Below, one piece after another: positions 9,673-58,265 of a stretch of 64,000 nt of DNA. The position numbers and the translations under genes are program-made. This stretch comes from Actinopolyspora lacussalsi (GTDB lineage Bacteria > Actinomycetota > Actinomycetes > Mycobacteriales > Pseudonocardiaceae), in NCBI GenBank assembly GCA_030803735.1, contig JAURUC010000001.1:1125501-1189500 (forward strand), in the 5' to 3' direction. Below the pieces are notes generated by a model, which was given only the letters and a program-made list of their open reading frames with translations, did not search any database and was not told the DNA's origin. Every line of letters starts with the position of its first letter. Position 1 is the stretch's first letter.

Positions 9673-9989
9673 GGCTACCCACTTTCCTCGACAACAGTGG
9701 CAGACGAAGAACAAGTAGTGACACTACAGATCACAATTTAGAGGGAACCATACACACGGAAGCGTGAAAGCTAGACAAAGAATATCACTTTCAGTAGCAA
9801 TCAACATCGCTACAGCAGGTAATCGAGCCACGTCCAGCGTAAAGAATGGATCGAACGGGCAACTGAACGTTTACAGCGGGCCCGTACTGCCGACAACGGA
9901 AAGCAAGAAGCGAAAAGATCCGGCCGCGCGGCCCGAGGGCGACCGCGCGGCCGGAGTGGTGCGACCGACTCGAACTCACATCGGACGGG
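9673..9989. other. Intergenic region upstream of the Excalibur/sortase operon
   Basis: This AT-richer stretch holds an inverted repeat GTAGTG-A-CACTAC (9715-9727) about 45 nt upstream of the Excalibur start, a candidate operator, and the terminator of the GH5 gene at 9919-9953. No gene is supported. Confidence 0.5.
9919..9953 (-). terminator. Intrinsic terminator after the GH5 mannanase-like gene
   Basis: Perfect 12-bp GC stem (9919-9930 with 9942-9953), 11-nt loop, followed on the minus strand by GATCTTTTC. It lies 36 nt past the GH5 stop codon. Confidence 0.75.
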
Positions 9990-41548: not shown

Positions 41549-41741
41549 AGTTGTTCCGTCGGATCCGTCATACCCGTGAAGCCGGTCAACCGGATTCCTC
41601 GCTCCTCGCGACGGTCCGGCATCGCCCCGGAACGAGAATCGGGAACCGGCCGTATCGGAAATGCCGATTCCGGTAAAGAAAATCTGTCGCGCAACCAGTA
41701 TTCGAAACCGAAGCAGCATGCTGTCTACAGAGGGAGACACC

Positions 41742-44700
41742 GTGCCACCGTTATTACGTAGAGCGTTAGCGGCGACATTCAGCACGATACTTCTCGTCGG
41801 AACCATGATCGCGTTCGGCGCGCCCGCCGCCGCCCGGTCCGACGACTCCACGACCGCCGCGAACAACACCGAATCCGCGGCGGATGTCACCCCGAAGCAC
41901 CAGGAATTCAACGTACTGGTGTTCTCGAAGACCGCCGGTTACCGACACGGTTCCATCCCGGCCGGAATCGAGGCGGTGAAAGAGCTCGGCAACGAGCACC
42001 ACTTCGGAGTGACCGCTACCGAGGACGCCTCGGCCTTCACCTACGACAACCTCAAGCAGTACGAAGCGGTCGTGTGGTTGTCCACCACCGGTGACGTGCT
42101 CAACGGGGCGCAACAGGCGGCCTTCGAGAAGTACATCAACAACGGCGGCGGTTACGCCGGTGTGCACGCGGCGGCGGACACGGAGTACGACTGGTCGTTC
42201 TACGGCGACCTCGTCGGGGCCTACTTCGACTCGCACCCGGCCGTTCAGGAAGCCACCGTCAACGTCACCGACTCCGAGCACCCCTCCACCTCCCATCTAC
42301 CGACGGAATGGAATCGCACCGACGAGTGGTACAACTACTCGCCCAATCCGCGCGAAGACGTGCACGTGTTGAGCACGCTGGACGAGTCCACCTACGACGG
42401 TGGCTCGATGGGCGAGGACCACCCGATCAGCTGGTGTCAGCCCTATCAGGGTGGCCGTTCCTGGTACACGGGAATGGGACACACCACCGAGTCCTTCTCG
42501 AACCAGAACTTCCTGGACCATCTCGCGGGTGGTATTCGGACCGCGGCGGGCGCCGTCTCGGCCGACTGCGGCGAGGCCGCAGCGGAGGGGACTCTCAACC
42601 AGGTGACACTGGCGAAAACGGCCGACGAGGTCGGCGAGCCCATGGGCATGGCGGTACTGCCGAACGGTGATGTGCTGCACAGCGAACGCCAGGGCACGCT
42701 GTACTACACCACCGCGTCCGGCAACACCGAAGTGGCTGGCGACATCCCCGTCTACACCCACGACGAGGAAGGTCTGCAGTCGCTGGCGATCGACCCGAAC
42801 TTCGAGCAGAACCGGTGGGTCTACCTCTATTACGCTCCCCCGTTGAACACTCCCTCGGGAGATGCCCCCGCGACTGCCGACGATCCGGCGACGTTCGAGG
42901 AGTGGCAGGGGTACAACCAGCTGTCGCGTTTCAAACTCGCTCAGGACGGCTCCCTGGACATGACCAGCGAGCAGCAGATCATGCGGGTGGACGCCACCCG
43001 CGGCATGTGCTGTCACGTGGGCGGGGACATCGCCTTCGGCCCCGAGGGCTCGCTGTATCTGTCCACCGGGGACGATTCGAACCCGTTCCAGTCGAGCGGT
43101 TACACCCCGATCGACGAACGTGGCAACCGCAACCCGGCATTCGACGCGCAGCGCACCTCGAGTAACACCAATGACCTGCGTGGCAAGGTGCTGCGGATCG
43201 ACGTCGCACCGGACGGTTCGTACAGCGTCCCGCAGGACAACCTGTTCGCCGGGGACAACAGCGACAAGACCCGCGACGAGATCTACGCGATGGGTTTCCG
43301 CAACCCCTACCGGATCTCGGTCGATCAGCGGACCGGCACTGTCTACGTGGGCAACTACGGTCCCGACGCCGCAACCGCCGATCCGCAACGCGGCCCGGCG
43401 GGCATAGTGGAGTACGAACGGGTCACCGAGCCCGGCAATCACGGTTGGCCGTACTGCGTGGGCGACAACAAGGCCTACCACGACTACGACTTCGCCACCG
43501 GTAACTCCAACGGCGAGTTCGACTGCGCCAATCCGGTCAACGACTCCCCCAACAACGACGGACTCACGGAACTTCCCACCGCGAAGCCCGCGTGGTTGCC
43601 CTACAATGACGACTCGGTTCCCGAGCTCGGCTCGGGCAGCGAGTCACCCATGGGCGGACCGGTCTACAACTACGACGCCGACAACCCCTCCACCACGAAA
43701 CTGCCGGCCTCCTACGACGGCAAGTTCTTCGCCTACGAGTGGGGACGAGGCTGGATCAAGACGATCACTCCGGACTCGAACGGTCAGCCGTCGCGGATCG
43801 AGGACTTCTTCTCCTCGATGACATTGACCCGTCCGATGGACATCGAGTTCGGTCCGAACGGCTCGCTGTACGTACTCGACTACGGCAGTGGGTACTTCGG
43901 CGGCGCCGAGGACTCGGCCGTGTACCGGATCGACTACACCCGTGACGGACGAGCCCCCACCGCACAGATCTCGGCCGAACCGACGAACGGTCAGGCGCCG
44001 TTGGAGGTCGACTTCTCGTCGAAGGGATCCTCGGATCCGGACCAGGGTGACTCGCTGAGCTACGCGTGGGACTTCGACGGGGACGGGCAGACCGACAGCA
44101 CCGAAACCAACCCCACGCACACCTACACCTCGGACGGCGAGCACACCGCCACGCTGACCGTCACCGACCAGACCGGCAAAACCGGTTCGGCCAGTGAAAC
44201 CGTGGTGGTGGGCAACACCGCTCCCAACGTGACGTTCCAACGGCCCACGGCGGGCAAGGTGTTCGAGTTCGGGGACACGGTCAACTACGAGGTCTCGGTC
44301 ACCGATCCGGACGGCACGGCGGTCGACTGCTCGAAGGTGCACGTGGAGTACATCCTGGGCCACTCCACCGGCAACGACTCGCACGGGCACCCGTTGAGCG
44401 AGGCCAACGGCTGCAGCGGGACTATCGAAACCTCCAACACGGACGGCCACCAGGGCGCCGACATCTACGGTGTGCTCAACGCCAGCTACACCGACACCTC
44501 GCCCACCGAGCAGGCGCCCGACCTGACCGGTTCCGCCGAGATCATCATGCAGCCCGCGAGCAAGCAGGCGGAGTTCTTCGAAGACAGCGACGGCGTGCAG
44601 CTCGTGGAGGACAGTGCGGGTGCCGAGGCCGGCGCCAGGGTCGGGCACATCCAGTCGGGTGACTGGATCTCGTTCACTCCGTACAACCTCGATGGGATTC

Positions 44701-46082
44701 GCTCGGCCACGTTCCGGGTCTCCTCGGGCGGTCCGGGTGGCACGATCGAGGTGCGTTCCGGTGCACCGGACGGACCGGTGGTGGCCACCGCCGATGTACC
44801 CAACACCGGCGGTTGGAGCACCTACACCGACGTCGGCCCCGTTCCGGTGACCGATCCGGGTGGCTCGAACGAGCTGTTCCTGGTGTTCACGGGCAGCGGT
44901 TCGGGTGGTCTGTTCGACGTGGACTCGATGCACCTGAGCCCCGATGCCGCGCCGAACTGCGAACCGGTGCAACCAGAGCAGGGCTACACCAGTCTGTTCG
45001 ACGGCACCGCGGCCAGCATGAACGGCTGGAAACAGGCCGGTCCCGGCGGATTCGAGCACACCGCGAACTGCACGTTGCGCTCCACCGGCGGCATGGGACT
45101 GTACTGGCTGGGTGACCGGCAGTTCACGGCGCCCTATTCGCTGAAGCTCGACTGGAAGCTGTCCGACCAGGACAACTCCGGGGTGTTCGTCGGCTTTCCC
45201 GACCCGGGCGACGATCCCTGGTCGGCCGTCAACAACGGGGAGGAGATCCAGATAGACCCCACCGACGCCCCGGAGAACCAGACAGGGGCGATCTATGACG
45301 AACAGGCTCCCGACCAGGAGAAACGCGACGCCGCGTTGAACCCGGCCGGTGAGTGGAACACCTACGAGATCGTCGTGACCGAAGAGTCGATCACCGTCCA
45401 CCTCAACGGTGCGCGGATCACCCACTGGGTCGACGACGACCAGAACGTCGATCTGAGCAACGGTCACATCGGGCTGCAGAACCACAGTGACGAGGACACG
45501 GTCGCCTTCCGCAACGTCCGTGTCGACGAGGGCATCGACGTGACCGCGCCGAAGGTATCGGCCGTTCCCTCCCCCGCCGATCCCAACGGTGATCCGCACG
45601 GCGAGTACGCGGGAACCTACAACACTCCCGTGAGCGTCACCCTGGAGTCCTCGGACAGCGGGTCCGGGGTGGCGACCGTGGAGTACCGCCTGGACGAGCA
45701 GGGCTGGACCGACTACGCGGAACCGGTGACCGTGCGGGGAGCGGGCGAGCACACCGTGCGGTACCGGGCCACGGACGAGGCGGGTAACACGTCGAAGGTG
45801 GGCACGTTCAACCTCGAGATCAGGCCCGACTCCTGTCCTGGTTCGGACCTGCGGAAAACCGTGGTGATCGGCTCCGACGACACCGGCGTCACCAACAGGG
45901 ACTCCGGGAACGGTTGCACGATCAACGACCTGATCGACGAACAGGCCGGCTACGACGATCACGGGCGGTTCGTGTCCCACGTGGATCGGGTGACGAACGA
46001 GCTGCTGGCGGACGATGTCATCTCCGGACGTGACAAGGGTCGGATCATGAGCGCCGCCGGGCGTTCCGACATCGGCGAGTGA
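41742..46082 (+). CDS. Giant secreted ThuA / PQQ-dehydrogenase-like / PKD / CBM-like / DUF1080 protein
   Basis: A 1446-residue secreted protein. The signal peptide is at residues ~1-33. A ThuA glutamine-amidotransferase-like domain follows at ~56-270 (FNVLVFSKTAGYRHGSI, GGGYAGVHAAADTEYDW). Next is a glucose/sorbosone-dehydrogenase-type beta-propeller at ~285-733 (GMAVLPNGDVLHSERQG, GMCCHVGGDIAFGPEGSLY, MGFRNPYRISVDQRTG, DIEFGPNGSLYVLDYGSG). A PKD domain at ~740-825 (YAWDFDGDGQ), a CBM6-like beta domain at ~940-1067, a DUF1080 / 3-keto-disaccharide-hydrolase domain at ~1080-1265 (YTSLFDGTAASMNGWKQ, DNSGVFVGFPDPGDD) and an Ig-like domain at ~1267-1363 complete it. It probably oxidises and/or cleaves sugars outside the cell. 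GTG at 41742 was chosen for its GGGAG site; ATG at 41718 is an alternative. Very acidic. Confidence 0.88.
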   Translation: MPPLLRRALAATFSTILLVGTMIAFGAPAAARSDDSTTAANNTESAADVTPKHQEFNVLVFSKTAGYRHGSIPAGIEAVKELGNEHHFGVTATEDASAFTYDNLKQYEAVVWLSTTGDVLNGAQQAAFEKYINNGGGYAGVHAAADTEYDWSFYGDLVGAYFDSHPAVQEATVNVTDSEHPSTSHLPTEWNRTDEWYNYSPNPREDVHVLSTLDESTYDGGSMGEDHPISWCQPYQGGRSWYTGMGHTTESFSNQNFLDHLAGGIRTAAGAVSADCGEAAAEGTLNQVTLAKTADEVGEPMGMAVLPNGDVLHSERQGTLYYTTASGNTEVAGDIPVYTHDEEGLQSLAIDPNFEQNRWVYLYYAPPLNTPSGDAPATADDPATFEEWQGYNQLSRFKLAQDGSLDMTSEQQIMRVDATRGMCCHVGGDIAFGPEGSLYLSTGDDSNPFQSSGYTPIDERGNRNPAFDAQRTSSNTNDLRGKVLRIDVAPDGSYSVPQDNLFAGDNSDKTRDEIYAMGFRNPYRISVDQRTGTVYVGNYGPDAATADPQRGPAGIVEYERVTEPGNHGWPYCVGDNKAYHDYDFATGNSNGEFDCANPVNDSPNNDGLTELPTAKPAWLPYNDDSVPELGSGSESPMGGPVYNYDADNPSTTKLPASYDGKFFAYEWGRGWIKTITPDSNGQPSRIEDFFSSMTLTRPMDIEFGPNGSLYVLDYGSGYFGGAEDSAVYRIDYTRDGRAPTAQISAEPTNGQAPLEVDFSSKGSSDPDQGDSLSYAWDFDGDGQTDSTETNPTHTYTSDGEHTATLTVTDQTGKTGSASETVVVGNTAPNVTFQRPTAGKVFEFGDTVNYEVSVTDPDGTAVDCSKVHVEYILGHSTGNDSHGHPLSEANGCSGTIETSNTDGHQGADIYGVLNASYTDTSPTEQAPDLTGSAEIIMQPASKQAEFFEDSDGVQLVEDSAGAEAGARVGHIQSGDWISFTPYNLDGIRSATFRVSSGGPGGTIEVRSGAPDGPVVATADVPNTGGWSTYTDVGPVPVTDPGGSNELFLVFTGSGSGGLFDVDSMHLSPDAAPNCEPVQPEQGYTSLFDGTAASMNGWKQAGPGGFEHTANCTLRSTGGMGLYWLGDRQFTAPYSLKLDWKLSDQDNSGVFVGFPDPGDDPWSAVNNGEEIQIDPTDAPENQTGAIYDEQAPDQEKRDAALNPAGEWNTYEIVVTEESITVHLNGARITHWVDDDQNVDLSNGHIGLQNHSDEDTVAFRNVRVDEGIDVTAPKVSAVPSPADPNGDPHGEYAGTYNTPVSVTLESSDSGSGVATVEYRLDEQGWTDYAEPVTVRGAGEHTVRYRATDEAGNTSKVGTFNLEIRPDSCPGSDLRKTVVIGSDDTGVTNRDSGNGCTINDLIDEQAGYDDHGRFVSHVDRVTNELLADDVISGRDKGRIMSAAGRSDIGE

Positions 46083-46219: not shown

Positions 46220-47404
46220 TTGACGAGTCCCGACAGCGACGGACGTACCGGGGTCTGGCTCATCGGCGCCCGGGGATCGGTCGCGACCACGGCGATCACG
46301 GGCGCGGCGGCACTGCGCGACCGGCTGATTCCCCCCACCGGCTGCGTCACCGAATCACCGGAACTCATGGACCCCGCGATGCCCGGATTCGACCGACTGG
46401 TGTTCGCCGGGCACGACATCACCGACACGCCGCTACCGAAGCGGGCCGAGCAACTCGAGGCGGGGGGCGTGCTGCCGCGCGGACTGCGCGAACTGGTTCA
46501 CACCGATCTCACGGCCGCGGACAACCGGATCCGGCCCGGCATCGGTACCGCGGACGAACGCCACGACCAACTGGAAGCGGCCGAACGGCTGACCCAACAG
46601 CTGTGTTCCTTCCGGGAGTTGTACGCGCTGTCGCGCGTCGTGGTGATCAATGTGGCCGCCACCGAAGCCCACCCACCGTCCCGGCGGGAACACGCCGACC
46701 TCGAAGAGCTGGAGAACGGCCTGCGGCATCCCGATCCGGCCGAAGGAGGACCACTTCCGCCGAGCTCGCTCTACGCCTACGCGGCCCTGCGAGCGGGCTG
46801 TCCGTACGCCGACTTCACGCCCTCCGTCGGAGCTCGGTTACCAGCGCTGGATCAGCTGGCCGCGGAACAACGGGTGCCATACGCGGGCAGCGACGGCAAA
46901 ACCGGCGAGACACTTGTCAAAAGTGCGCTGCTGCCGATGTTCTCCAGCCGCGCGCTACACGTCCGGTCCTGGTCCGGCACCAACCTGCTCGGCGGCGGTG
47001 ACGGACGCAACCTCGCCGACCCGAACAACGTGACCAGCAAAACCACCTCGAAACAACGTGCCATCGGCGAGTCGCTGGGGCATCCGGTCGACGGGGACGT
47101 GCACATCGACTACGTCCCCGCTCTCGGCGAATGGAAAACCGCCTGGGACCACATATCCTTCGAGGGGTTTCTCGGCAACGGCATGAGCATGCAGTTCACC
47201 TGGCAGGGCTGCGACTCCGCCCTGGCCGCACCTCTCGTACTCGACCTGGCCAGGCTGCTGGCACGGGCACACGAACGCGGGCACTACGGTCCGCTCCCCC
47301 AGCTCGGCTTCTTCTTCAAGGATCCGGTGGCCTCGGAAGAGCATCGGTTGGTGGCCCAGTTCGAAGCGCTGCGTTCCTTCGTCGAACGACTCAAGGAGGG
47401 ATGA
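46220..47404 (+). CDS. Inositol-3-phosphate synthase family cyclase (first gene of Ebo-type operon)
   Basis: A 394-residue NAD-dependent sugar-phosphate cyclase of the myo-inositol-1-phosphate synthase family. GVWLIGARGSVATTAITGAAAL is the NAD-binding fold; VVVINVAATE, YADFTPSVGA, YAGSDGKTGETLVKSALLPMF and SWSGTNLLGGGDGRNLADP, SKTTSKQRAIG and HIDYVPALGEWKTAWDHISFEGF are the conserved MIPS blocks with the catalytic Lys residues. It would make a cyclitol phosphate from a hexose phosphate, but it is a divergent paralogue, not clearly the housekeeping Ino1. TTG at 46220 is the start, after GAGGAGGG. Its stop overlaps the UbiA start. Confidence 0.88.
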   Translation: MTSPDSDGRTGVWLIGARGSVATTAITGAAALRDRLIPPTGCVTESPELMDPAMPGFDRLVFAGHDITDTPLPKRAEQLEAGGVLPRGLRELVHTDLTAADNRIRPGIGTADERHDQLEAAERLTQQLCSFRELYALSRVVVINVAATEAHPPSRREHADLEELENGLRHPDPAEGGPLPPSSLYAYAALRAGCPYADFTPSVGARLPALDQLAAEQRVPYAGSDGKTGETLVKSALLPMFSSRALHVRSWSGTNLLGGGDGRNLADPNNVTSKTTSKQRAIGESLGHPVDGDVHIDYVPALGEWKTAWDHISFEGFLGNGMSMQFTWQGCDSALAAPLVLDLARLLARAHERGHYGPLPQLGFFFKDPVASEEHRLVAQFEALRSFVERLKEG

Positions 47405-48291
47405 CAGTGCGAATTCGGACACTGGTGGAACTCGTACGCGCTCCGGCCGCGCTGTCCGTGCCCGGCGACGTAGCGGCCGGATCCGCCGCACGACGCCCGT
47501 CCAGTCAGACGACGATGCTGATGTTGTCCTCGTGCTTGTTGTACTGGGCGGGCATGGCGCTCAACGACTACGCCGACCGGGAGGTCGACGCGGCTGAGCG
47601 ACCGGCGAGGCCGATCCCGTCCGGCCGGGTTCCGCCCGGGCTCGCGCTGGGCCTGGCGATCTCGTTCACCGGCTTGGCCACGACGATCGCCGCGCTCTCC
47701 TGCGGCAGGCGAACCCTGCGCGTCACCGTACCGCTGGCGGGCACGGTCTGGGGCTACAACATGGGATTGAAACGGATTCCGGCCGGTCCAGCCACGATGG
47801 CCGCCGCGCGCGCACTCGACGTGCTGCACGGCGCCGGCCCCGGTGGTTTCCGCGACGCGGCACCGGCGGCCGCCGCCATCGGTGCGCACACCTACGGCGT
47901 CAGCACGGTGGGGCGTGCGGAGGTCAGCGGAGCGTCCCGACGGGTTCCCGGGGCCGCGTTGACGATGACGACCACGATCGTCTCAACGCTTCTCCCCCGA
48001 GCGATCCGGATGACCGCGGTAAGAGGTCCGGAATCGCGGCACCGCCTCGTCGGGGCCACGATGTCGGCGGCACTGGCCGTCTACGTGGGCACGACCGGGA
48101 CGGCTCAGTTGAAAGCTCTCCGCGACCCGAGCCCGGCACGACTGCGACAAGCCACCAGTGCCGGAATTCTCGGGATGATCCCGCTGCAAGCGGCGCTGAC
48201 CGCGGGGGGAGGAGCTCCACGGCGGGCGGCCACCGTCCTGACGCTTTTCCCGATCGCGCGACGACTCTTCGGACGGGTGTCACCGACATGA
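47401..48291 (+). CDS. UbiA-type prenyltransferase (EboC-like)
   Basis: A 296-residue integral membrane protein with about eight helices. YWAGMALNDYADREVDAAERPARPIPSGRV is the UbiA Asp-rich motif NDxxDxxxD followed by the RP-x-PSG signature, binding Mg2+ and a prenyl diphosphate. A second Asp-type motif is altered (RALDVLHGAG). SCO-type EboC proteins belong to this family. It likely attaches an isoprenoid to the cyclitol product or acts as a lipid-carrier enzyme in the membrane. Overlaps both neighbours by 4 nt; AAGGAGGG lies at the start, so GTG at 47407 is a possible alternative. Confidence 0.85.
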   Translation: MTVRIRTLVELVRAPAALSVPGDVAAGSAARRPSSQTTMLMLSSCLLYWAGMALNDYADREVDAAERPARPIPSGRVPPGLALGLAISFTGLATTIAALSCGRRTLRVTVPLAGTVWGYNMGLKRIPAGPATMAAARALDVLHGAGPGGFRDAAPAAAAIGAHTYGVSTVGRAEVSGASRRVPGAALTMTTTIVSTLLPRAIRMTAVRGPESRHRLVGATMSAALAVYVGTTGTAQLKALRDPSPARLRQATSAGILGMIPLQAALTAGGGAPRRAATVLTLFPIARRLFGRVSPT

Positions 48292-49196
48292 GTGAAATCG
48301 GTTCCTTCCCCACAAACGCGACGGCGCTGCCGAAACACTCCGGCTCCGAGCGGACACTACGTTTCGGATACGGCACGAACGGATTCGACAACCACCGGCT
48401 GACGGATTCGCTGGAGATCCTGGCCGAGCAGGGCTACGACGGAGTCGCGGTAACACTCGATCACGACCATCTCGATCCGTTTCACCCTGACGTGGCCGAA
48501 CACACCGCGCGGTTAAGACGAGATCTGGAACGACTGGAACTCGACGCGGTGGTGGAAACGGGCGCGCGCTATCTGCTCGATCCGCGACACAAGCACCATC
48601 CGACGCTGCTGTCGGAACCCGGCCGAGCACTGCGTCTCGACCTGCTGCACCGTGCGGTACACATCGCGGCGCAACTGCGGGCCGGGGTCGTCTCGTTCTG
48701 GAGCGGCACGAAGCCCTACCACCTCGACGACGAAACGGCGTGGTCGCTGCTGGTCGAAGGTTGTTCGGAGGTTCTCGACACCGCTGCCGAGTACGGCGTG
48801 AAGCTGGGGTTCGAGCCGGAACCCGGCATGTTCGTCCAGGACCTGGACGGTTTCGAACAGCTGGCGGCGAAGTTGAACCACCCCGAGCTGTTCGGGGTGA
48901 CGCTGGACATCGGGCACTGCCGCTGTCTGGAACCCGTGGACGTACCGGCGTGCGTACGCCGTGCCGGCCCGGACCTGGTCAACGTCCAGATCGACGACAT
49001 GCGACGTGGCGTGCACGAACACCTGGAGTTCGGCGAGGGCGACATCGATTTCCCACCGGTGATGGACGCGCTGCGCGAGGTGGGCTACCGCGGTCTGGTC
49101 TCCGTGGAACTACCCCGACACAGCCACGCCGCGCCCGCCGTGGCACAGCGCTCGCTGCGTTTTCTTCGGCAGGCAGCCACGGAGGTGACAGCATGA
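48288..49196 (+). CDS. Xylose-isomerase-like TIM-barrel protein in the Ebo-type operon
   Basis: A 302-residue cytoplasmic sugar-phosphate isomerase/epimerase-type protein. LRFGYGTNGFDNHRLTDSLEILAEQGYDGVAVTLDHDHLDPF begins the barrel; VVSFWSGTKPYHLDDETAW, GVKLGFEPEPGMFVQDLDGF (Glu ligand), GVTLDIGHCRCLEP (Asp/His ligands), VNVQIDDMRRGVHEHLEFGEGDIDF and GLVSVELPRHSHAAPAVA complete it. The conserved Glu-Asp-His-Glu set suggests a divalent metal site and an isomerisation or epimerisation of a sugar or cyclitol. 4-nt overlaps on both sides. Confidence 0.85.
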   Translation: MSEIGSFPTNATALPKHSGSERTLRFGYGTNGFDNHRLTDSLEILAEQGYDGVAVTLDHDHLDPFHPDVAEHTARLRRDLERLELDAVVETGARYLLDPRHKHHPTLLSEPGRALRLDLLHRAVHIAAQLRAGVVSFWSGTKPYHLDDETAWSLLVEGCSEVLDTAAEYGVKLGFEPEPGMFVQDLDGFEQLAAKLNHPELFGVTLDIGHCRCLEPVDVPACVRRAGPDLVNVQIDDMRRGVHEHLEFGEGDIDFPPVMDALREVGYRGLVSVELPRHSHAAPAVAQRSLRFLRQAATEVTA

Positions 49197-49864
49197 CCGC
49201 TCCGAATCCGGCCGAACTGCGTGCCGCGCTCGACGAGCGGATCGACGAGACCGCGGGACGCTGGTTGGACGAGGCACTGACGGACATCGCCACGGAGGTA
49301 CGTGCGATCGGCACGCTCTTTCCGGCAGCGGGCAGGAAATGCGGTCGTGGCCCGCTCGTCGACGATGCGGCCGAGTCCGGAACACTGCGGAACTGGAACA
49401 GCGAGGACGCGGTGCGCGCGTTGCTGCTGACGGCGCTGCCGTCGACGGGTGCCGAGCTGGGAACGGAGATCAGCGCGCTGTACCGGTACGGCGATGCCGC
49501 GGAGAAACGCGGCGTACTGCGAGGTGCGGGTGTGCTCCGGGAGGAACCGGAGCTGGTGGATGCCGGGCTGCCGTTGGTACGGGACGCGTTGCGCAGCAAC
49601 GACACCGGCCTGATCGCAGCGGGAATGGCCGAGTTCGGCGCCCGTCATCTCGACGCACCCGCTTACCGGCAGGGCGTGCTCAAGTGCGTGTTCCTCGGAA
49701 TTCCACTACGGGACGTCTCCGGAGTGCGGGAACGTGCCGACGCCGAGCTGGCACGCATGCTCACCGACTACGCCAGGGAGCGCAGCGCGGCAGGACGGGA
49801 GATACCCAACGACGTGTGGCTGGTCGTGGACCCGGCACAACCCCACCCCGCCGAGGAGGCATGA
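49193..49864 (+). CDS. eboA: EboA domain-containing protein
   Basis: A 223-residue soluble, mostly helical protein of the EboA family: RWLDEALTDIATEVRAIGTLFPAAGRKCGRGPL, AVRALLLTALPSTGAELGTEISALYRYGDAAEKRGVLRGAGVL, GLPLVRDALRSNDTGLIAAGMAEFGARHLDAPAYRQGVLKCVFLGIPL. EboA has no known enzymatic activity. In cyanobacteria the ebo genes are required to export the scytonemin precursor to the periplasm, and homologues occur in eustigmatophyte plastids and Pseudomonas (edge-biofilm cluster). The start at 49193 has GGAGGTGACAGC upstream. Confidence 0.85.
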   Translation: MTAPNPAELRAALDERIDETAGRWLDEALTDIATEVRAIGTLFPAAGRKCGRGPLVDDAAESGTLRNWNSEDAVRALLLTALPSTGAELGTEISALYRYGDAAEKRGVLRGAGVLREEPELVDAGLPLVRDALRSNDTGLIAAGMAEFGARHLDAPAYRQGVLKCVFLGIPLRDVSGVRERADAELARMLTDYARERSAAGREIPNDVWLVVDPAQPHPAEEA

Positions 49865-50724
49865 TGCGCATTTTCGACCCGCACATCCACATGAGCTCGC
49901 GGACCACGAACGACTACGACGCGATGTACCGGGCAGGAGTGAGGGCCCTGGTCGAGCCTTCCTTCTGGGTGGGGCAGCCACGCACCTCGGTGGGAACCTT
50001 CGTGGACTACTTCGACGGCCTGATCGGATGGGAACCGTTCCGGGCTTCGCAGTACGGTATCGCGCATCACTGCACCATCGGTCTCAATCCGAAGGAGGCC
50101 AACGACCCCAGATGCCGTGACGTACTGGAGGTACTACCCCGTTACCTGGCCAAGGACGGCGTGGTGGCGGTGGGCGAGCTCGGTTACGACGCCATGACCG
50201 CCGAGGAGGACGATGCCTTCGCCGCTCAGCTGGAACTGGCCGCCGAGCACGAGTTACCGGTGCTCGTACACACCCCGCACCGGGACAAGGAGGCCGGGAC
50301 GCGGCGCAGCCTCGATGTGATCCGGGAGTCCGGCATCCCCGTCGAACGTGTCGTCGTCGATCACCTCAACGAGGTGACCGTCGAAGCCGTGGCGGAATCG
50401 GGCTGCTGGATGGGGTTTTCGATCTATCCGGACACCAAGATGGACGAGGACCGGATGGTTCGGATAATGCGCGGGTACGGCGTGGAACGGATGCTGGTCA
50501 ATTCGGCGGCCGACTGGGGCAAGAGCGATCCGCTGAAAACGAGCAAAACCGCGCACGCGATGCTGGCCGCCGGTTTCGAACCGGCCGCGGTTGACACTGT
50601 TTTCTGGTCGAACCCGGTCGGATTCTACGGGCAGAGTGGTCGACTGCGCACGGAGACATCCACGCTCGGGGACGGTGACGGCACCACTTTCGCGGGAAAC
50701 TCCATCGAACGCGGGAAACGGTGA
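49861..50724 (+). CDS. eboB: TatD family metal-dependent hydrolase (EboB-like)
   Basis: A 287-residue TIM-barrel hydrolase of the TatD type. FDPHIHMSSRTTNDYDAMYRAG has the HxH ligands, GVVAVGELGYDAMTAEEDDAFAAQLELAAEHELPVLVHTPHRDKEAG the Glu and His ligands, VVDHLNEVTVEAVAESGCWMGFSIYPDTKMDEDRMV the next His, and LVNSAADWGKSDPLKTSKTA the catalytic Asp. It is EboB by context. Role in the pathway unknown; hydrolysis of a phosphate-ester or amide intermediate is possible. 4-nt overlaps with eboA and eboE. Confidence 0.88.
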   Translation: MMRIFDPHIHMSSRTTNDYDAMYRAGVRALVEPSFWVGQPRTSVGTFVDYFDGLIGWEPFRASQYGIAHHCTIGLNPKEANDPRCRDVLEVLPRYLAKDGVVAVGELGYDAMTAEEDDAFAAQLELAAEHELPVLVHTPHRDKEAGTRRSLDVIRESGIPVERVVVDHLNEVTVEAVAESGCWMGFSIYPDTKMDEDRMVRIMRGYGVERMLVNSAADWGKSDPLKTSKTAHAMLAAGFEPAAVDTVFWSNPVGFYGQSGRLRTETSTLGDGDGTTFAGNSIERGKR

Positions 50725-51890
50725 TCATGCGATTTCGTCATCGTGACGGATCAACCGTACACCTGGCCTACTGCACCAACGTGCATCCAGCGGAAGACCT
50801 CGAAGGCATCATCGCTCAGTTCGACCGCTACGCCGTACCGATACGCCGGAGGCTGGGCGTCGAACGGCTCGGGCTCGGACTGTGGTTGGCACGGGACGTG
50901 GCCACCGCGTTGGTCGAGGACGACACCGCGCTGGCCCGACTGCGCACCGAGCTGCTGGCAAGGGGCCTGGAAGTGGTGACGCTGAACGGTTTCCCCTATC
51001 GGGGCTTCCAACGAGCGGTGGTCAAACACGCGGTGTACCGGCCCGACTGGTCCGAGCGCGCGAGACTGGACTACACACTCGACTTGGCGAAACTACTGTC
51101 CCAACTGCTACCCGAAGACGTCACCAGCGGCAGCGTGTCCACACTACCGCTGGGATGGGGCGCGTGGTGGTCGAAACACCACCACAACCGAGCCCTGGCA
51201 CATCTGACCGAACTGACGGACGGGCTCGCTCGACTAGCCGCGCGGGAGGGACGTTCGGTGCGGGTCGGGTTGGAGCCCGAGCCGGGGTGCGTGTTGGAGA
51301 CGACCGATCAGCTCGTTTCCGCGCTGTCCGGAACGGACACCGAGCACCTCGGGATCTGTCTGGACACCTGCCACGTGGCCGTGGCGTTCGAAAACCCGCA
51401 CCGAGCGCTGCGACGGCTGCGCGAAGCCGGCCTGCCGGTGGTCAAAACGCAGGCGTCCTCCGCGCTGCGGGTGGACAACCCCGGCGACCCGGTGCAACGT
51501 GCGGAGCTGACCTCCTTCGTGGAACCCAGGTTTCTGCATCAGACCCAGCAGAGCGGTGACGGGGTCCGGCGTGCCGTCGATGATCTGGATTCGGCGCTGG
51601 CAGGCGAACTCTCGGAAGACCAACCGTGGCGGGTGCACTTCCACACTCCGCTGCACACCGATCCGAGTGCCTCGCTGCGTGGGACGCATGACGTGCTCGG
51701 GGAGACACTCCGCTCGTTGCTCGGCGACAACACGGCACACACCCGCCACGTGGAGGTGGAGACCTACACCTGGGACGTACTCCCGGGCTCGGGAGATCAC
51801 TCCGCGAGCATCGGATCCGGGATCGCGGCCGAACTCGACTGGGCCCGGAACCGACTGCTCGAACTCGGACTCACGGAGGAAGGTCGATGA
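50721..51890 (+). CDS. eboE: Metabolite traffic protein EboE (TIM barrel)
   Basis: A 389-residue protein of the EboE family, a xylose-isomerase-like barrel. VHLAYCTNVHPAEDLEGIIAQFDRYAVPIRRRLGVERLGLGLWLA is the diagnostic start, LEVVTLNGFPYRGFQRAVVKHAVYRPDW follows, and VRVGLEPEPGCVLETTDQLV, LGICLDTCHVAVAFENPHRAL, RVHFHTPLHTDPSASLRGTHDVL give Glu, Asp/His and His residues of a probable metal site. Function: required with the other Ebo proteins for trafficking of a small molecule in cyanobacteria. Starts with GTG at 50721 (GTGA overlap); ATG at 50727 is an alternative. Confidence 0.88.
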   Translation: MIMRFRHRDGSTVHLAYCTNVHPAEDLEGIIAQFDRYAVPIRRRLGVERLGLGLWLARDVATALVEDDTALARLRTELLARGLEVVTLNGFPYRGFQRAVVKHAVYRPDWSERARLDYTLDLAKLLSQLLPEDVTSGSVSTLPLGWGAWWSKHHHNRALAHLTELTDGLARLAAREGRSVRVGLEPEPGCVLETTDQLVSALSGTDTEHLGICLDTCHVAVAFENPHRALRRLREAGLPVVKTQASSALRVDNPGDPVQRAELTSFVEPRFLHQTQQSGDGVRRAVDDLDSALAGELSEDQPWRVHFHTPLHTDPSASLRGTHDVLGETLRSLLGDNTAHTRHVEVETYTWDVLPGSGDHSASIGSGIAAELDWARNRLLELGLTEEGR

Positions 51891-53299
51891 ATCACACAGC
51901 CGAGGCACGTACTCCGGTACTGCTGCTGGACGTGGTGGGTTTGACCCCCCGACTTCTCGAACACATGCCCAATCTGGACCGAATAGCGCGCCGTGGTTTT
52001 CGAGCCGAGCTGAAAACCGTGTTCCCCGCCGTCACCTGTCCGGTGCAGTCCAGTCTGCTCACCGGACGACATCCCGGTGACCACGGCATAGTCGGTAACG
52101 GCTGGTTCTTCCGTGACATCGGTGAGGTCTTCTTCTGGCGCCAGTACAACGGGCTGGTGCGCGGCGAAAAGATTTGGCAAGCGGCACGCGAGCGGGATCC
52201 CGGCTATCGGGTCAGCAACGTCTGCTGGTGGTACGCGATGGGGATGGACGTCGACGAGACCGTGACCCCTCGTCCCGTTTACCACGCGGACGGGCGCAAG
52301 TCGCCGGACTGCTACACCTACCCAACGGGACTGCGTGACGAGCTCACCGACAAGTTCGGGACCTTTCCGCTGTTCAACTACTGGGGACCGACCGCTTCGA
52401 TCGAGTCCAGCCGTTGGATCGCCGAGGCCACCGGCCACTTGCTGTCCACTCGCGGTTCGGACCTGACGATGGCCTACATCCCACACCTCGATTACGACCT
52501 GCAACGCTACGGCCCGGACAGTCCCCGAGCCGCGGCGGCGGCACGGGAGGTGGACAGGGCGTTGGCTCCGTTGCTGAACCGCGCGGAAGCGCAAGGAGTC
52601 ACGGTGCTGGCCCTGTCGGAGTACGGCATGACAGAGGTGAGCAGGCCGATCGACATCAATCGCGCACTGCGGCGGGAACGACTGCTGCACGTACACACTC
52701 AGGCGGGCATGGAGTACCTCGATCCGTGGAGTTCCCGTGCCTTCGCCGTCGCGGATCATCAGGCGGCGCACATATACGTCCGGGACGCCGATGATCTCGC
52801 CAGGGTACGTGACGTCGTCGGTGCGCTGCCCGGTGTCGACGAAGTTCTCGACGCCTCGGGCAAGAAACGGTACGGCATCGATCACGAACGTGCCGGTGAC
52901 TTGGTGGCGGTAGCCGAACCCGACTCGTGGTTCAGCTACTACTACTGGTTGGACGACGCACGGGCCCCCGATTTCGCCACGCACGTGGAGATCCACCGCA
53001 AGCCCGGCTACGACCCGGCCGAACTGTTCATGGATCCCCGCGACCGGCTGGTCAGGTTGCGCGCGGCGACAGCGGTGGCCCGCAAGAAACTGGGACTGCG
53101 GTACCGGATGAACGTGGTACCGCTCGATCCGACCCCGGTTCGCGGCAGTCACGGCAGGCTCGCGGACAGCCCCTCCGACGGACCGGTGCTGTTGTGCTCC
53201 GACGAACGCTTCGGCCGGGAGAGTTACCACGCCACGGAAGTCAAGGACCTGTTGCTCGAGCTCTCCGGCCTTCGCGAACCGCGACTGACAACGAGTTGA
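51887..53299 (+). CDS. eboF: Alkaline-phosphatase-superfamily phosphodiesterase (EboF-like)
   Basis: A 470-residue nucleotide pyrophosphatase/phosphodiesterase-like protein without signal peptide. TPVLLLDVVGLTPRLLEHMPNLDRIARRGFRAELKTVFPAVTCPVQSSLLTG gives the first metal Asp and the Thr nucleophile; AYIPHLDYDLQRYGPDSP, LALSEYGMTEVSRPIDINRAL and HRKPGYDPAELFMDP hold the further Asp/His ligands. It probably hydrolyses a phosphate mono- or diester of the pathway intermediate. Start at 51887, with AGGAAGG upstream and overlapping the eboE stop. Confidence 0.88.
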   Translation: MNHTAEARTPVLLLDVVGLTPRLLEHMPNLDRIARRGFRAELKTVFPAVTCPVQSSLLTGRHPGDHGIVGNGWFFRDIGEVFFWRQYNGLVRGEKIWQAARERDPGYRVSNVCWWYAMGMDVDETVTPRPVYHADGRKSPDCYTYPTGLRDELTDKFGTFPLFNYWGPTASIESSRWIAEATGHLLSTRGSDLTMAYIPHLDYDLQRYGPDSPRAAAAAREVDRALAPLLNRAEAQGVTVLALSEYGMTEVSRPIDINRALRRERLLHVHTQAGMEYLDPWSSRAFAVADHQAAHIYVRDADDLARVRDVVGALPGVDEVLDASGKKRYGIDHERAGDLVAVAEPDSWFSYYYWLDDARAPDFATHVEIHRKPGYDPAELFMDPRDRLVRLRAATAVARKKLGLRYRMNVVPLDPTPVRGSHGRLADSPSDGPVLLCSDERFGRESYHATEVKDLLLELSGLREPRLTTS

Positions 53300-53323
53300 A
53301 CACCACCACGGGAAAGGATGATC

Positions 53324-54334
53324 ATGCCCCGACCGATCACACTGTTCACCGGCCAGTGGGCCGACCTGCCGTTCGAGGACGTGGCCAAGCTCGCCTCGGA
53401 ATGGGGCTACGACGGCCTGGAGATCGCCTGCTGGGGTGATCACTTCGAGGTGGACAGGGCGCTCGCGGAAAAGGACTACGTACGGCGGAAACGAGAGGTG
53501 CTGGAAAAGCACGATCTGAACTGCTGGGTGCTGTCGAACCACCTGCTCGGCCAGGCCACCTGCGATTATCCGATCGACGAACGACACCGGAACATCCTTC
53601 CCCCGGAGATCTGGGGGGACGGTGATCCCGAAGGTGTTCGACAACGTGCCGCGGAACGGATGCGGGACACGGCGAGAGCAGCGGCCGAGTTCGGTGTGGA
53701 CAAAGTCGTCGGTTTCACCGGCTCTCCGATCTGGTACACGGTGGCGATGTTCCCGCCGACTCCCGACGAAATGGTGCAGCGTGGTTACCAGGAGTTCGCC
53801 GACCGTTGGAACCCCATTCTCGACGTGTTCGACGAGTGTGGTGTCCGGTTCGCGTTGGAGGTCCATCCCACCGAGATCGCCTACGACTACTGGACCACGG
53901 TTCGTACTCTCGAAGCGGTGGACCACCGATCCGCACTCGGACTGAACTTCGATCCCTCGCATTACGTGTGGCAGGGCTTCGATCCGGTGACTTTTCTGTG
54001 GGACTTTCAGGACCGCATCCTGCACGTCGACTGCAAGGAGGCGCGTGTCAGGAGCAATGACGGCCGCAGTGGAGTGCTCGGCTCACACCTCCCCTGGGGG
54101 GATCCCAGACGTGGCTGGGATTTCGTGTCCACCGGGCACGGCCACGTCCCCTGGGAGGACTGCTTCCGCACGCTCAACACGATCGGCTACGACGGTCCGA
54201 TTTCCATCGAATGGGAGGACGCGGGCATGGATCGGCTGCGGGGAACTCCCGAAGCGCTGGAGTTCGTGCGAAACCTGAACTTCACTCCGCCTGCGGCGTC
54301 TTTCGATGCCGCTTTCGGTTCCGAGGCGCAGTAG
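53324..54334 (+). CDS. Xylose-isomerase-like TIM-barrel protein, last gene of Ebo-type operon
   Basis: A 336-residue sugar-phosphate isomerase/epimerase-type barrel. [63 protein letters not shown] (Glu), [38 protein letters not shown] (Asp/His/Asp) and [17 protein letters not shown] (Glu) mark a metal-binding active site as in inosose or 3-keto-sugar isomerases. Follows eboF by 24 nt with GGAAAGG before the ATG at 53324. Fourth such barrel in this 14-kb stretch. A strong hairpin follows. Confidence 0.87.
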
Positions 54335-54599: not shown

Positions 54600-55559
54600 T
54601 CATCGCCGCGTTTCGTCGGACAATCGCCGGACCAGTACGGTCGAGTCGACCGCGACCCGCCCTTCCTGTTCCAGAGTCACCCGCACGGTGTCCCCCGCGA
54701 TAGGTTCGTCGTGGACCCGCACGAAACACGACCGTCCCAACTCGATGTAACTGTGGAAGCGGGTTCGCATACCCACCGGCAGCACCGTGTCCGGGCAGAA
54801 TTCGGAGCGTACGGCTTGGCGCGCCGCTTCCAGGGCGGTCATTCCCGGAACATGATCGACCGGATGATCGAACAGCACCGGATGCGTACGTCCGTCCCGC
54901 AGCAACCAGGTACGTTCGTGAGGCGTCGGCGCCAGCAGCACGTCGGACGGACAATCACGACCGACCCGCCACGGCGGAACGGACTCCGGAAGTTCCGCCT
55001 GATCCACTGTATCGGTGAAGTCGTCACAGCCTGCCCGAATTCGCGCGTAAGCCGCGGGGGATATGCAACTGTACGGCAGCGTGACCCTCCCGACGAATAC
55101 CCCGTCACGATATCCGTGCACGTGCATATTCGCCCCGGCGAATGTCCTACCCCGCCATTTGACGTTTTCGCAGTGAATTTCCAGTACGATTTGGGCGGGA
55201 GTATCGGCAAGACGAAGCGCTTCCGGCTCCACCTCGTAATCCAATGTGTCCATTATGAACTGGTGTCCGTAGGGAACGCCGAAGCCGGCGTGTCCCACGA
55301 CCAACCCTGCCTGCCGCGCCGCCTCCGCGAACAGGAGAGGATCGTGACCACCCGCGACCGGCCCGTAAAGGGCGTGCGCACGAGGTAACTGTGCCCCCAG
55401 CACGAAATCGTTCTCGCCGCGTTCACCGAAACTGGTAACCAGAACCTCGGTGTTCGCGGCACGATGGACCCAGCGACGTGGCAGACTCTGCTCGAACGAG
55501 ACGGTTGGTTGCTCACGGGACTCTTCGGTGACGGTGTCGGCGACGATACTGCTGGTCAT
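54600..55559 (-). CDS. afsA: A-factor / gamma-butyrolactone synthase (AfsA family)
   Basis: A 319-residue protein with two hot-dog-type AfsA repeats. SLPRRWVHRAANTEVLVTSF, RAHALYGPVAGGHDPLLFAEAARQAGLVVGHAGFGVPYGHQFIMDTLDYEV form the first; DCPSDVLLAPTPHERTWLLRDGRTHPVLFDHPVDHVPGMTALEAARQAV the second. AfsA condenses a beta-keto-acyl-ACP with dihydroxyacetone phosphate, the committed step to gamma-butyrolactone signals. Start at 55559 has GGAGGG 6 nt upstream. Two ARE-like sites lie in its promoter, so the receptors downstream probably control it. Confidence 0.93.
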   Translation of the reverse strand: MTSSIVADTVTEESREQPTVSFEQSLPRRWVHRAANTEVLVTSFGERGENDFVLGAQLPRAHALYGPVAGGHDPLLFAEAARQAGLVVGHAGFGVPYGHQFIMDTLDYEVEPEALRLADTPAQIVLEIHCENVKWRGRTFAGANMHVHGYRDGVFVGRVTLPYSCISPAAYARIRAGCDDFTDTVDQAELPESVPPWRVGRDCPSDVLLAPTPHERTWLLRDGRTHPVLFDHPVDHVPGMTALEAARQAVRSEFCPDTVLPVGMRTRFHSYIELGRSCFVRVHDEPIAGDTVRVTLEQEGRVAVDSTVLVRRLSDETRR

Positions 55560-55583
55560 AAGGCCCTCCACAGCATTAAAGAT

Positions 55584-55597
55584 ACCTACCGTGCGGT
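55584..55597 (-). promoter_or_regulatory. ARE-like receptor site in the afsA promoter (1)
   Basis: ACCTACCGTGCGGT (plus strand), matching the shared pattern WCCnACnnnSCGGT of four sites in this locus, 25 nt before the afsA start. It resembles the autoregulatory elements bound by ScbR/ArpA-type receptors. Confidence 0.55.
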
Positions 55598-55624
55598 TTG
55601 AAATCCCCCTCGCTGAGCATAGAG

Positions 55625-55638
55625 ACCGGTTAGTCGGT
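55625..55638 (-). promoter_or_regulatory. ARE-like receptor site in the afsA promoter (2)
   Basis: ACCGACTAACCGGT on the minus strand, flanked by AAAA, nearly identical to the site upstream of the second receptor gene (58263-58283). It lies between the divergent afsA and MDR genes. Confidence 0.55.
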
Positions 55639-55715
55639 TTTTCAAGAGTGTAGTGAGTAGTCTTGAAGGGAAACTTCGGTCAGCCGGCTCGCCGTTCGGG
55701 CCCGCCGGTTCGACG

Positions 55716-56762
55716 ATGATTGGTGGTGTTGCGGTGACTTCCGGACCAACGCTCGTGCCCGTGGAACCGAACCGGGAAGTACATCTCGGCGAAGCGACGG
55801 GAATGCCACTCACCTCGGAACACTTCCGCGTGATCACCACGGCGGTGCCTCGCCCCGGCACGGGCGAAGTTCTGGTGCGCAACAGGCTCATGGCGGTGAC
55901 AGCGGCGATGTGCACCATGATGGTCGCCGAGGACCTCCCGATACCTTCCTATCGGCGGGGGAGTCCACTGTGGGGCGCCGCCATCGGCGAGGTCGTGGCC
56001 GCGGGGCCGGCGAGCGATATCGAACCCGGTGCCCTGGTAAAGCACGGACTGGGTTGGCGCGACTACGCACTGCTGAAAACGACGGCGGTCGAGTCGATAG
56101 AGCCCACCGACGCACACGACCCTGGAGCACTGCTCTCGCACGGTGCTCCCGCCTGGGCCGCGTTGCGCAGGGTCGCGCGGGTCGGAAACGGGGACACGGT
56201 CTTCGTGAGCGGAGCGGCCGGTGGCCTCGGCACTCTGGCCGGACAGATCGCGCGACACCTCGGCGCGAAACGAGTGCTGGGAAGCACCGGCTCACCGGAG
56301 AAGGCCGACCGGCTGCGTCGAGAACTCGGTTACGACGAACTCGTATTGCGGAACGAGACCACTGTCACGAATCAACTGCGACTGGCCGCGCCGGAGGGTC
56401 TGGACGTCGTCTGCGACACCGTGGGCGGCGAACAGCTCGAAGCCGCGGTGGAAAACGCCAACACCGGGGCACGTGTGGCGCTGCTGGGAGCGCTGTCGGG
56501 CCAACTCGGTGGGGACGGACTCAGCGCGCCGACCCGCTTGGACTCCGCACTGCTGATCAGGCGGAGGATGGAAATCCGGGGTGTCTCGCTACGGGATCAC
56601 GCGGACGCGGAACGGGAGTGGACCCGCGTGTTCGTGGACGGTCTCACCGAAGGGGCTTTCAGCTTTCCGCACACCAGGCTGTACGGACTCGAACGAGCCC
56701 CCGAAGCACTTCGTGAACTCGTAGCCGGCGAGCACATGGGGACCGTACTGGTGGAGCTCTGA
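55716..56762 (+). CDS. MDR-family NADPH oxidoreductase (zinc-independent ADH / quinone-reductase type)
   Basis: A 348-residue medium-chain dehydrogenase/reductase. TTAVPRPGTGEVLVRNRLMAVTAAMCTMM begins the substrate domain, GDTVFVSGAAGGLGTLAGQIARHLGAKRVLGSTGSPEKADRLRRELGYDELV is the Rossmann fold with NADP-type features, and LDVVCDTVGGEQLEAAVENANTGARVALLGALSGQ is typical of the PTGR/leukotriene-reductase branch. No zinc-binding Cys pattern. Divergent from afsA with shared ARE-like sites, so it may reduce the butenolide intermediate in signal synthesis; this is an inference. The start is uncertain: ATG at 55716 has no clear site, the frame is open from 55653. Confidence 0.8.
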   Translation: MIGGVAVTSGPTLVPVEPNREVHLGEATGMPLTSEHFRVITTAVPRPGTGEVLVRNRLMAVTAAMCTMMVAEDLPIPSYRRGSPLWGAAIGEVVAAGPASDIEPGALVKHGLGWRDYALLKTTAVESIEPTDAHDPGALLSHGAPAWAALRRVARVGNGDTVFVSGAAGGLGTLAGQIARHLGAKRVLGSTGSPEKADRLRRELGYDELVLRNETTVTNQLRLAAPEGLDVVCDTVGGEQLEAAVENANTGARVALLGALSGQLGGDGLSAPTRLDSALLIRRRMEIRGVSLRDHADAEREWTRVFVDGLTEGAFSFPHTRLYGLERAPEALRELVAGEHMGTVLVEL

Positions 56763-56799
56763 GAGCTCCGCCGAGTGAGGGCGTTCAGGCACAGCGGGA

Positions 56800-57462
56800 T
56801 CACGAGGACGCGATGTCGGTGGCCTCGTGCTGCTGGGGAATACTACCGAAGTCGTCGAGATCACCGACACCGTCCGGTTCGATTCGTGCCAGCACCCCTG
56901 GAGTCGCGATTCCGGGCAGCAGATGACGCCACAACGTGGCAACCCGGTCACACACGTCCTCGCGGTTGGTGGCGGCCTGCGAGAACAGCTGAACGCCCAA
57001 GTAGGAGGCGACGAACATCTCCGCTGTCTCCACCGGGTCGACGGAGGGCAACACTTCCCCGCTCTCCTTGGCGGAGGAGAACATCGAACGGAACACACTG
57101 GTCCACTGCTGGTACGGAACGATCGGTTCCTTGGCGAACCCTGTCTCCACGGCGATTCGCGTACCCGCCTGCAACAACGGATCGGACTGCAACGCCCGGG
57201 CCACGCGCTGCGAGAGATCGACCGCGTCCTGCAACCGCGAACTCGTCACCGGCACGGTCGATATGTTGGTCTGCTCCTCGATCACGGCCTCCGCCAACGC
57301 CTGCTTGGACGGGAAGTGGAAATACATCGCCCCCTTGGTCACTCCGGCGTGAGCGAGGATCTCCGCGATCGTCGCCCCTTCGTAACCACGTGCGGCGATC
57401 ACCTCGGCCCCGGCCCGCAGCACCAGTGCCCTCGTCCGCACCGCGCGTTCCTGCTTAACCAA
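56800..57462 (-). CDS. TetR-family gamma-butyrolactone receptor (ScbR/ArpA type), first copy
   Basis: A 220-residue repressor. TRALVLRAGAEVIAARGYEGATIAEILAHAGVTKGAMYFHFPSKQALAEAVIEEQ is the TetR helix-turn-helix with the KGAMYFHF pattern characteristic of ScbR/ArpA-like receptors. The C-terminal domain has the conserved Trp-containing pocket (PYQQWTSVFRSMF). It probably represses afsA and antibiotic genes until a gamma-butyrolactone binds. Starts with TTG at 57462 after GGAGGAG. It lies 84 nt downstream of the second receptor gene. Confidence 0.9.
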   Translation of the reverse strand: MVKQERAVRTRALVLRAGAEVIAARGYEGATIAEILAHAGVTKGAMYFHFPSKQALAEAVIEEQTNISTVPVTSSRLQDAVDLSQRVARALQSDPLLQAGTRIAVETGFAKEPIVPYQQWTSVFRSMFSSAKESGEVLPSVDPVETAEMFVASYLGVQLFSQAATNREDVCDRVATLWRHLLPGIATPGVLARIEPDGVGDLDDFGSIPQQHEATDIASS

Positions 57463-57546
57463 GCTCTCCTCCAGTACGTTGCCGGACCACCGACATCCCT
57501 ACGTCAACGACCGGGACACGTCGGACTCACTGTTTCGGTCAACATA

Positions 57547-58233: not shown

Positions 58234-58265
58234 CACGACATGCTCCCTGTCTCGTCTCTAATAAA

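Follow-up and report, generated by a model that had tools for sequence, protein, structure and literature searches.

A predicted actinobacterial form of the ebo operon in which an inositol-phosphate-synthase-type cyclase and a TIM barrel may stand in for EboD

Transfer of scytonemin precursors to the periplasm of Nostoc reportedly requires the ebo genes (PMC6282210). At its naming in 2016 the operon had no known product, and Yurchenko et al., who surveyed 148 taxa identified by blastp, proposed an isoprenoid-cyclitol product derived from EboD (PMC5133447). The main text of that paper uses neither the word inositol nor MIPS (myo-inositol-1-phosphate synthase), and we found no later report of the ebo product among open-licence papers. 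Here we describe a related operon in a window of 64,000 nucleotides (the whole stretch of DNA that was analysed) from the 5.03 Mb genome of the actinomycete Actinopolyspora lacussalsi. We see the chances as evenly balanced that this is an actinobacterial variant of the ebo operon in which an archaeal-type MIPS paralogue and a TIM barrel protein, TIM1, replace EboD, and which would yield a prenylated cyclitol serving as a carrier or helper.

A seven-gene operon headed by a MIPS-family cyclase

Positions 46220-54334 of the window contain eight genes in the same direction (+ strand), the first seven of which (46220-53299) form a tight operon whose six junctions are 4-nt overlaps (ATGA or GTGA). 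The cyclase gene (46220..47404), with a TTG start at 46220 preceded by GAGGAGG, lies at the place expected for EboD and overlaps at 47401-47404 with the gene for a UbiA-superfamily prenyltransferase of the SCO3242 family, the counterpart of EboC (47401..48291). This in turn overlaps at 48288-48291 with the gene for TIM1 (48288..49196), an AP_endonuc_2 TIM barrel that resembles ketose 3-epimerases. There follow genes for an EboA-domain protein (49193..49864; overlap 49193-49196), a TatD-type metallo-hydrolase corresponding to EboB (49861..50724; overlap 49861-49864), the EboE TIM barrel (50721..51890) and a protein of the type I phosphodiesterase/nucleotide pyrophosphatase family (PDE) corresponding to EboF (51887..53299; overlap with EboE 51887-51890). 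The EboE gene may start at GTG 50721 or ATG 50727, and its overlap with the TatD gene (50721-50724) holds if the GTG is used. The eight reading frames and their order were as an original prediction from the sequence had described them; the overlaps noted there link seven genes, but the eighth (TIM2, start 53318) follows the PDE gene after an 18-nt gap.

The cyclase matched both Pfam domains of MIPS, PF07994 (151 bits) and PF01658 (112 bits), as the original prediction had anticipated, and scored 33.5 of 638 bits with the Ino1 equivalog TIGR03450, a model that covers one subgroup. Its closest solved structure was MIPS 1u1i (225.5 bits), followed by 7nwr (157 bits) and further MIPS structures, while a five-membered-cyclitol-phosphate synthase (6k96, 47 bits) and 1gr0 (44 bits) came last among its solved relatives. 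A profile of the operon MIPS proteins gave the same ranking (1u1i 333, 7nwr 252, 6k96 79 and 1gr0 67 bits). We take 1u1i to be from Archaeoglobus fulgidus, 1gr0 to be mycobacterial and 6k96 to be the aristeromycin-pathway enzyme. In an alignment that excluded copies of 250 residues or fewer, N255, K274, K278, K306, D332 and K367 were unchanged in 83 of 83 operon MIPS copies and in 29 other aligned copies; the four lysines are presumably the catalytic lysines of MIPS, and the 3qvw and 3qvx chains depart from 1u1i at the positions of K278 and K367, as deliberate mutants would. Since all 83 copies keep these active-site residues, the operon MIPS should be an active cyclase, and homology suggests glucose-6-phosphate as its substrate. 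In a MIPS tree the operon proteins formed a group apart (branch support 98).

The remaining proteins of the core were assigned by comparable matches. The EboA domain (NF035938, 157 bits, cut-off 50) and EboE (NF035939, 433.5 bits, cut-off 250) scored well above their thresholds, so the two assignments on which the original prediction leaned held, and EboE was 97% identical to that of Actinopolyspora righensis. The EboA protein fell short of the subfamily model NF035937 (75.5 of 320 bits), and its predicted structure, which is all-helical with a mean confidence (pLDDT) of 94.7, had no match in the PDB at E 0.001; a scaffold role is probable. Of 114 records searched, 4 have TIM1 and EboA within a single stop-to-stop frame. 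The UbiA protein matched NF045897, the SCO3242 family model (336 bits, cut-off 260). The TatD-type protein matched PF01026 (53 bits), with 3guw (AF_1765) as its closest solved structure (105 bits), and the PDE matched PF01663 (228 bits), was about 50% identical to the PDE of an EboD-type locus (L032) and showed no signal peptide on inspection by eye.

Distribution of the cyclase and of TIM1

A set of 396 Actinomycetota genomes was searched with EboE, the operon-MIPS profile, the SCO3242-type UbiA and NF004852, an EboD-fitting model with which five EboD proteins score 530-585 bits, all above its cut-off of 333. EboE was found in 19 genomes and operon-type MIPS in 17, spread over eight families, with scores of at least 564 bits against at most 330 for the next class; all 17 also carry EboE and the SCO3242-type UbiA over cut-off. 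Operon-type MIPS thus occurs in 17 of 19 genomes with EboE and 0 of 377 others (Fisher p 6e-28, with no correction for kinship), and neither operon-type MIPS nor EboD was found in these 377. The two EboE genomes without operon MIPS are G381, whose EboD-type locus L032 contains EboD and in which MIPS and TIM1 were not found, and G279, which has a broken locus. NF004852 exceeded its cut-off in G381 alone, so the search for EboD alongside the operon in relatives, which the original prediction had named as a decisive check, found none in the tested genomes. In the broken locus of G279 (L046), EboE and UbiA are each in two pieces, and the two MIPS of that genome score only 327 and 76 bits.

EboD, the dehydroquinate synthase (DHQS)-like cyclase of canonical ebo operons, was likewise not found in the window genome. 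It contains two DHQS genes, of which we read the second as AroB (its match was too short for the tree). The extra DHQS (G000:C1:4608270-4609370), the best match of the genome to NF004852 at 226.9 of 333 bits, was considered as a displaced EboD and rejected; it groups with D_L235, D_L150, D_L236 and D_L156 (Shimodaira–Hasegawa-like approximate likelihood ratio test, SH-aLRT, 97) and not with the EboD clade (99), in a tree that omitted rows matching over no more than 200 residues (L024, L137, L140, L145, L152, L153 and L154). A DHQS-like cyclase of the window genome at L047 8127-9398, below the AroB and EboD-model cut-offs and outside the EboD clade, may be a valiolone-synthase-type enzyme.

A scan of named genomes confirmed at least 586 stretches, of which the best 80 loci, all Actinomycetota by title, were compared. 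Among the 61 listed that extend 7.5 kb or more upstream of EboE ('full' loci), 48 have MIPS, 13 lack it and none has EboD; two of the remaining 19, with shorter upstream sequence, have MIPS. TIM1, EboA and TatD accompany MIPS in all 48 full MIPS loci, PDE in 47 and UbiA in 45. Eight of the loci without MIPS (L029, L052, L059, L061, L066, L067, L069 and L078) have genes for a gamma-glutamyltranspeptidase, an inositol-monophosphatase-family protein and an FAD oxidoreductase upstream (Pfam was run on L052, and the others were recognised by sequence match). This trio was not found in the other MIPS-less loci, and a link of the phosphatase to inositol was dropped.

Plasmids extended the comparison to other phyla. 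EboE matched 48 plasmid records, and regions were read in 18 of these: eight from Streptomyces, nine EboD-type and one from Gemmatirosa kalamazoonensis. By annotation, seven of the eight Streptomyces regions hold the complete seven-gene set, and L193 holds EboE alone. The nine regions of EboD type come from Proteobacteria, Deinococcus and Bacteroidota, and each has an annotated 3-dehydroquinate synthase; inositol-3-phosphate synthase was annotated in none of the nine, and the MIPS profile was negative in the seven tested. Together with L032 these make ten EboD-type loci without MIPS, which supplied the five EboD proteins scored with NF004852, and TIM1 was not found in the eight tested. Operon MIPS and EboD were therefore mutually exclusive in the genomes and loci examined, and because TIM1 accompanies MIPS in every one of the 48 full MIPS loci and was found in none of the 8 EboD-type loci, MIPS and TIM1 look like a joint replacement of EboD. 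The exchange of MIPS for EboD put forward in the original prediction is thus supported, both possible refutations having been sought and not found, but it appears to involve MIPS and TIM1 and not MIPS alone.

The Gemmatirosa plasmid locus encodes MIPS (410 bits), TIM1, UbiA, PDE, TatD, EboE and TIM2; neither EboD nor EboA was found in it. Its EboE and PDE group with eight EboD-type rows, split from 28 actinobacterial rows (MIPS or no cyclase) with SH-aLRT 100, and its MIPS branches as the sister of the operon MIPS proteins of actinobacteria (SH-aLRT 100). On the simplest reading of this one record, which rests on quick trees made without bootstrap, the cyclase was apparently exchanged against the rest of the operon, as functional equivalence of the two cyclases predicts.

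TIM1 also accompanies a MIPS of another clade in a separate cluster on Hymenobacter, Roseomonas and Methylobacterium plasmids (L239 3271-11972, L240 2503-11815 and L241 3062-11891). The cluster encodes MIPS, an HD-domain-type protein, a Gfo/Idh/MocA oxidoreductase, YcaO, TIM1, a GT4 glycosyltransferase and a PIG-L deacetylase, and some examples add a methyltransferase or MBL-fold gene. It may belong to an inositol-based amino-sugar or thio-metabolite pathway, and no report of it was found in a search of open-licence papers.

Proposed pathway and competing explanations

In the pathway that we propose, MIPS would cyclise a hexose phosphate, by homology glucose-6-phosphate, to an inositol phosphate, TIM1 would adjust the ring or its precursor, and the UbiA enzyme would attach a prenyl chain. 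The TatD/EboB, EboE and PDE/EboF proteins would then finish the product, with EboA as a scaffold, to yield a prenylated cyclitol that acts as a lipid carrier or as a helper for moving metabolites across the membrane. The activities, the order of the steps, the product and the role are all predictions. A ring-forming enzyme of a different type, together with a helper enzyme, is a concrete clue to the ring molecule made by the ebo cluster; since the MIPS reaction is well understood, the clean replacement of EboD by MIPS restricts the likely products to cyclitols of the inositol type. A bolder version, which we offer as a tentative proposal and consider less likely than not, is that MIPS plus an epimerase-like TIM barrel, found in two phyla, is a two-enzyme substitute that converges on the role of the DHQS-like cyclase, that the product is a prenylated inositol-like cyclitol, and that the operon serves actinomycetes as a mobile carrier-lipid cassette, inserted into antibiotic clusters of unrelated kinds, including that of the calcium-dependent antibiotic (CDA), to export their products.

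Several observations weigh against the proposed pathway, the chief of them at the prenylation step. The only activity of an EboC-type enzyme that we found in print is that of Ubi-297, reported to farnesylate 8-HQA and quinaldic acid in vitro; six of 14 acceptors were farnesylated, with quinolines the best (PMC9235831). Such an activity is at odds with a cyclitol as acceptor, although all 14 compounds offered were aromatic. The UbiA of this operon may likewise prenylate an aromatic compound, with the MIPS-derived cyclitol used elsewhere, for instance as a head group on another molecule. Aromatic biosynthetic genes near some operons agree with this, but the operon is also found with other kinds of biosynthetic genes and UbiA is retained in nearly all full MIPS loci, and we consider it quite unlikely. 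In addition, the UbiA of the window scored 104.6 of 250 bits with the EboC equivalog NF035940; the original prediction was right to call it a UbiA prenyltransferase, but it belongs to the SCO3242 family and is not EboC proper. NDxxDxxxD and many other conserved positions are common to SCO3242-type and EboC-type proteins, and Glu replaces the expected second Asp motif in 67 of 67 SCO3242-type and seven of nine EboC-type rows (the nine include L191, of MIPS type), so that by sequence the two look like sister families. Furthermore, MIPS retains its phosphate and EboD-type cyclases eliminate theirs, which means that the downstream steps cannot be identical. Branch support for the separation of operon MIPS was only 10 with an alternative set of rows, and 14 of the 17 genomes, which are related, supplied rows to the MIPS profile; copies outside these rows still scored 573-575 bits (G128, G334 and G369), and the lowest of the 83 operon copies scored 522. 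The Gemmatirosa TIM1 lies among actinobacterial rows, beside those of the YcaO cluster (91, with row Yc_L241 ignored), so TIM1 and MIPS may have moved separately. Finally, the 13 full loci without MIPS, all Streptomyces, retain the other genes, and MIPS is therefore not needed in every copy. Operon-type MIPS was found elsewhere in 13 of the 14 genomes of these loci and L123 (the L123 match is at a contig edge, and the exception is the genome of L075), and of the two ebo loci in genome G128 only one includes MIPS; the MIPS-less loci consequently look like second copies able to use MIPS made elsewhere.

The same loci would be expected if MIPS were a general inositol supply gene, co-transcribed by chance and outside the Ebo pathway, and no MIPS other than the operon copy was found in G268 and G318 (82% complete). 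This is very improbable, as a second MIPS is present in the other 15 of the 17 operon-MIPS genomes, operon-type MIPS without EboE was not found in the 396 genomes, and the association recurs in another phylum in Gemmatirosa. A second MIPS would also be retained if the chemistry of the operon enzyme had changed, such that it forms a different cyclitol or lets TIM1 epimerise a released keto intermediate, and the product ring is that of EboD. The aristeromycin five-membered-cyclitol-phosphate synthase, a MIPS with changed chemistry, is a precedent; ketose 3-epimerases, which TIM1 resembles, require a carbonyl; and the operon MIPS is a group apart, far from actinobacterial Ino1 as judged by TIGR03450. 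Its active-site residues nevertheless match those of true MIPS, and its profile is closer to 1u1i than to 6k96, so we regard a change of chemistry as possible but rather unlikely.

Neighbouring genes and relation to known systems

Upstream of the operon lies a gene (41661..46082, +) for a secreted-looking protein with ThuA, GSDH, PKD, CBM6 and 3-keto-disaccharide hydrolase parts. Such parts are often found near the operon (GSDH in 32, ThuA in 29 and 3-keto-hydrolase in 20 of the 48 full MIPS loci), as is TIM2 (53318..54334, +; 29 of 48), a TIM barrel that scored 574 bits with SCO6571 (2zds) and 137 bits with a 2-hydroxy-3-keto-glucal hydratase (8ro4). The pair recurs near the operon in Streptomyces, Prauserella, Saccharomonospora and others; 21 of the 80 named loci, including 17 from Streptomyces, show the order TIM2, ThuA protein, MIPS. 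Judged by their families, TIM2 and the secreted protein probably fit one 3-keto-glycoside module separate from the Ebo core, and we have left TIM2 out of the core for this reason and for their shared order. The original prediction had counted TIM2 in the pathway, to which it probably does not belong, although TIM2 also lies beside TIM1 in Gemmatirosa and may have some link to the operon. Directly downstream, at 54600-58236, are genes for an AfsA-type A-factor synthase (-), a zinc-type dehydrogenase (+) and two TetR-type regulators (-), a set that recalls the control of secondary metabolism by gamma-butyrolactones.

On Streptomyces plasmids the operon has varied biosynthetic company. In L244 its neighbours include an amino acid adenylation protein, carrier-protein activating enzymes and SARP-type regulators, and in L194 FAD-dependent oxygenases, a methyltransferase, an amidase and glutamine-synthetase-family and PurB-type genes; the similar-looking L193 has a lone EboE (8995-10173) inside a type II polyketide cluster, the other operon genes not being seen in the region shown. 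L243 has an aromatic prenyltransferase, a type III polyketide synthase, a multicopper oxidase and a ScyD/ScyE-family gene. In L026, L196 and L243 the ScyD/ScyE-family gene immediately precedes the MIPS-type operon and a multicopper oxidase lies downstream, which recalls the scytonemin locus; phmmer found the gene in none of the 48 full MIPS loci, it was seen only on these three Streptomyces plasmids, and the link is suggestive only. In Streptomyces coelicolor, SCO3237-SCO3241 are presumably the rest of the operon. SCO3242, namesake of the UbiA family, and SCO3243, annotated as myo-inositol phosphate synthase, are listed with the CDA genes (PMC3610822). This listing, together with the many kinds of biosynthetic neighbours of one operon and the export phenotype in Nostoc, suggests a general carrier, export or traffic role; no constant transporter gene was seen in the operon. 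The operon may be an export aid that metabolites of unrelated chemistry have in common, and the question moves into genetically tractable Streptomyces, where the operon sits among antibiotic genes.

Public annotation already names single genes of the operon (inositol-3-phosphate synthase, SCO3242 family prenyltransferase, EboA domain, EboE), and no published report of MIPS in an ebo operon was found among open-licence papers, which does not prove its absence in print; the parts are thus known and the MIPS substitution seems new. Compared with archaeal-type MIPS (1u1i), the operon enzyme shares the full-length match and the catalytic lysines and differs as a separate group tied to ebo genes. 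The synthase 6k96 is of the same family and distant (47 bits to the window protein, against 225 for 1u1i), and to our knowledge it has no prenyltransferase partner. Compared with the ebo operon (EboA-F) of cyanobacteria, Bacteroidota and eustigmatophyte plastids, the clustering, the EboA domain, TatD/EboB, UbiA, EboE and PDE/EboF are common to both (PMC5133447, PMC6282210). The EDB cluster of Pseudomonas fluorescens NZI7 is reported as a full ebo cluster with eboD, unlike the operon of the window (PMC6282210). The actinobacterial form has instead MIPS and TIM1 for EboD and an SCO3242-family UbiA, in the conserved order MIPS-UbiA-TIM1-EboA-TatD-EboE-PDE.

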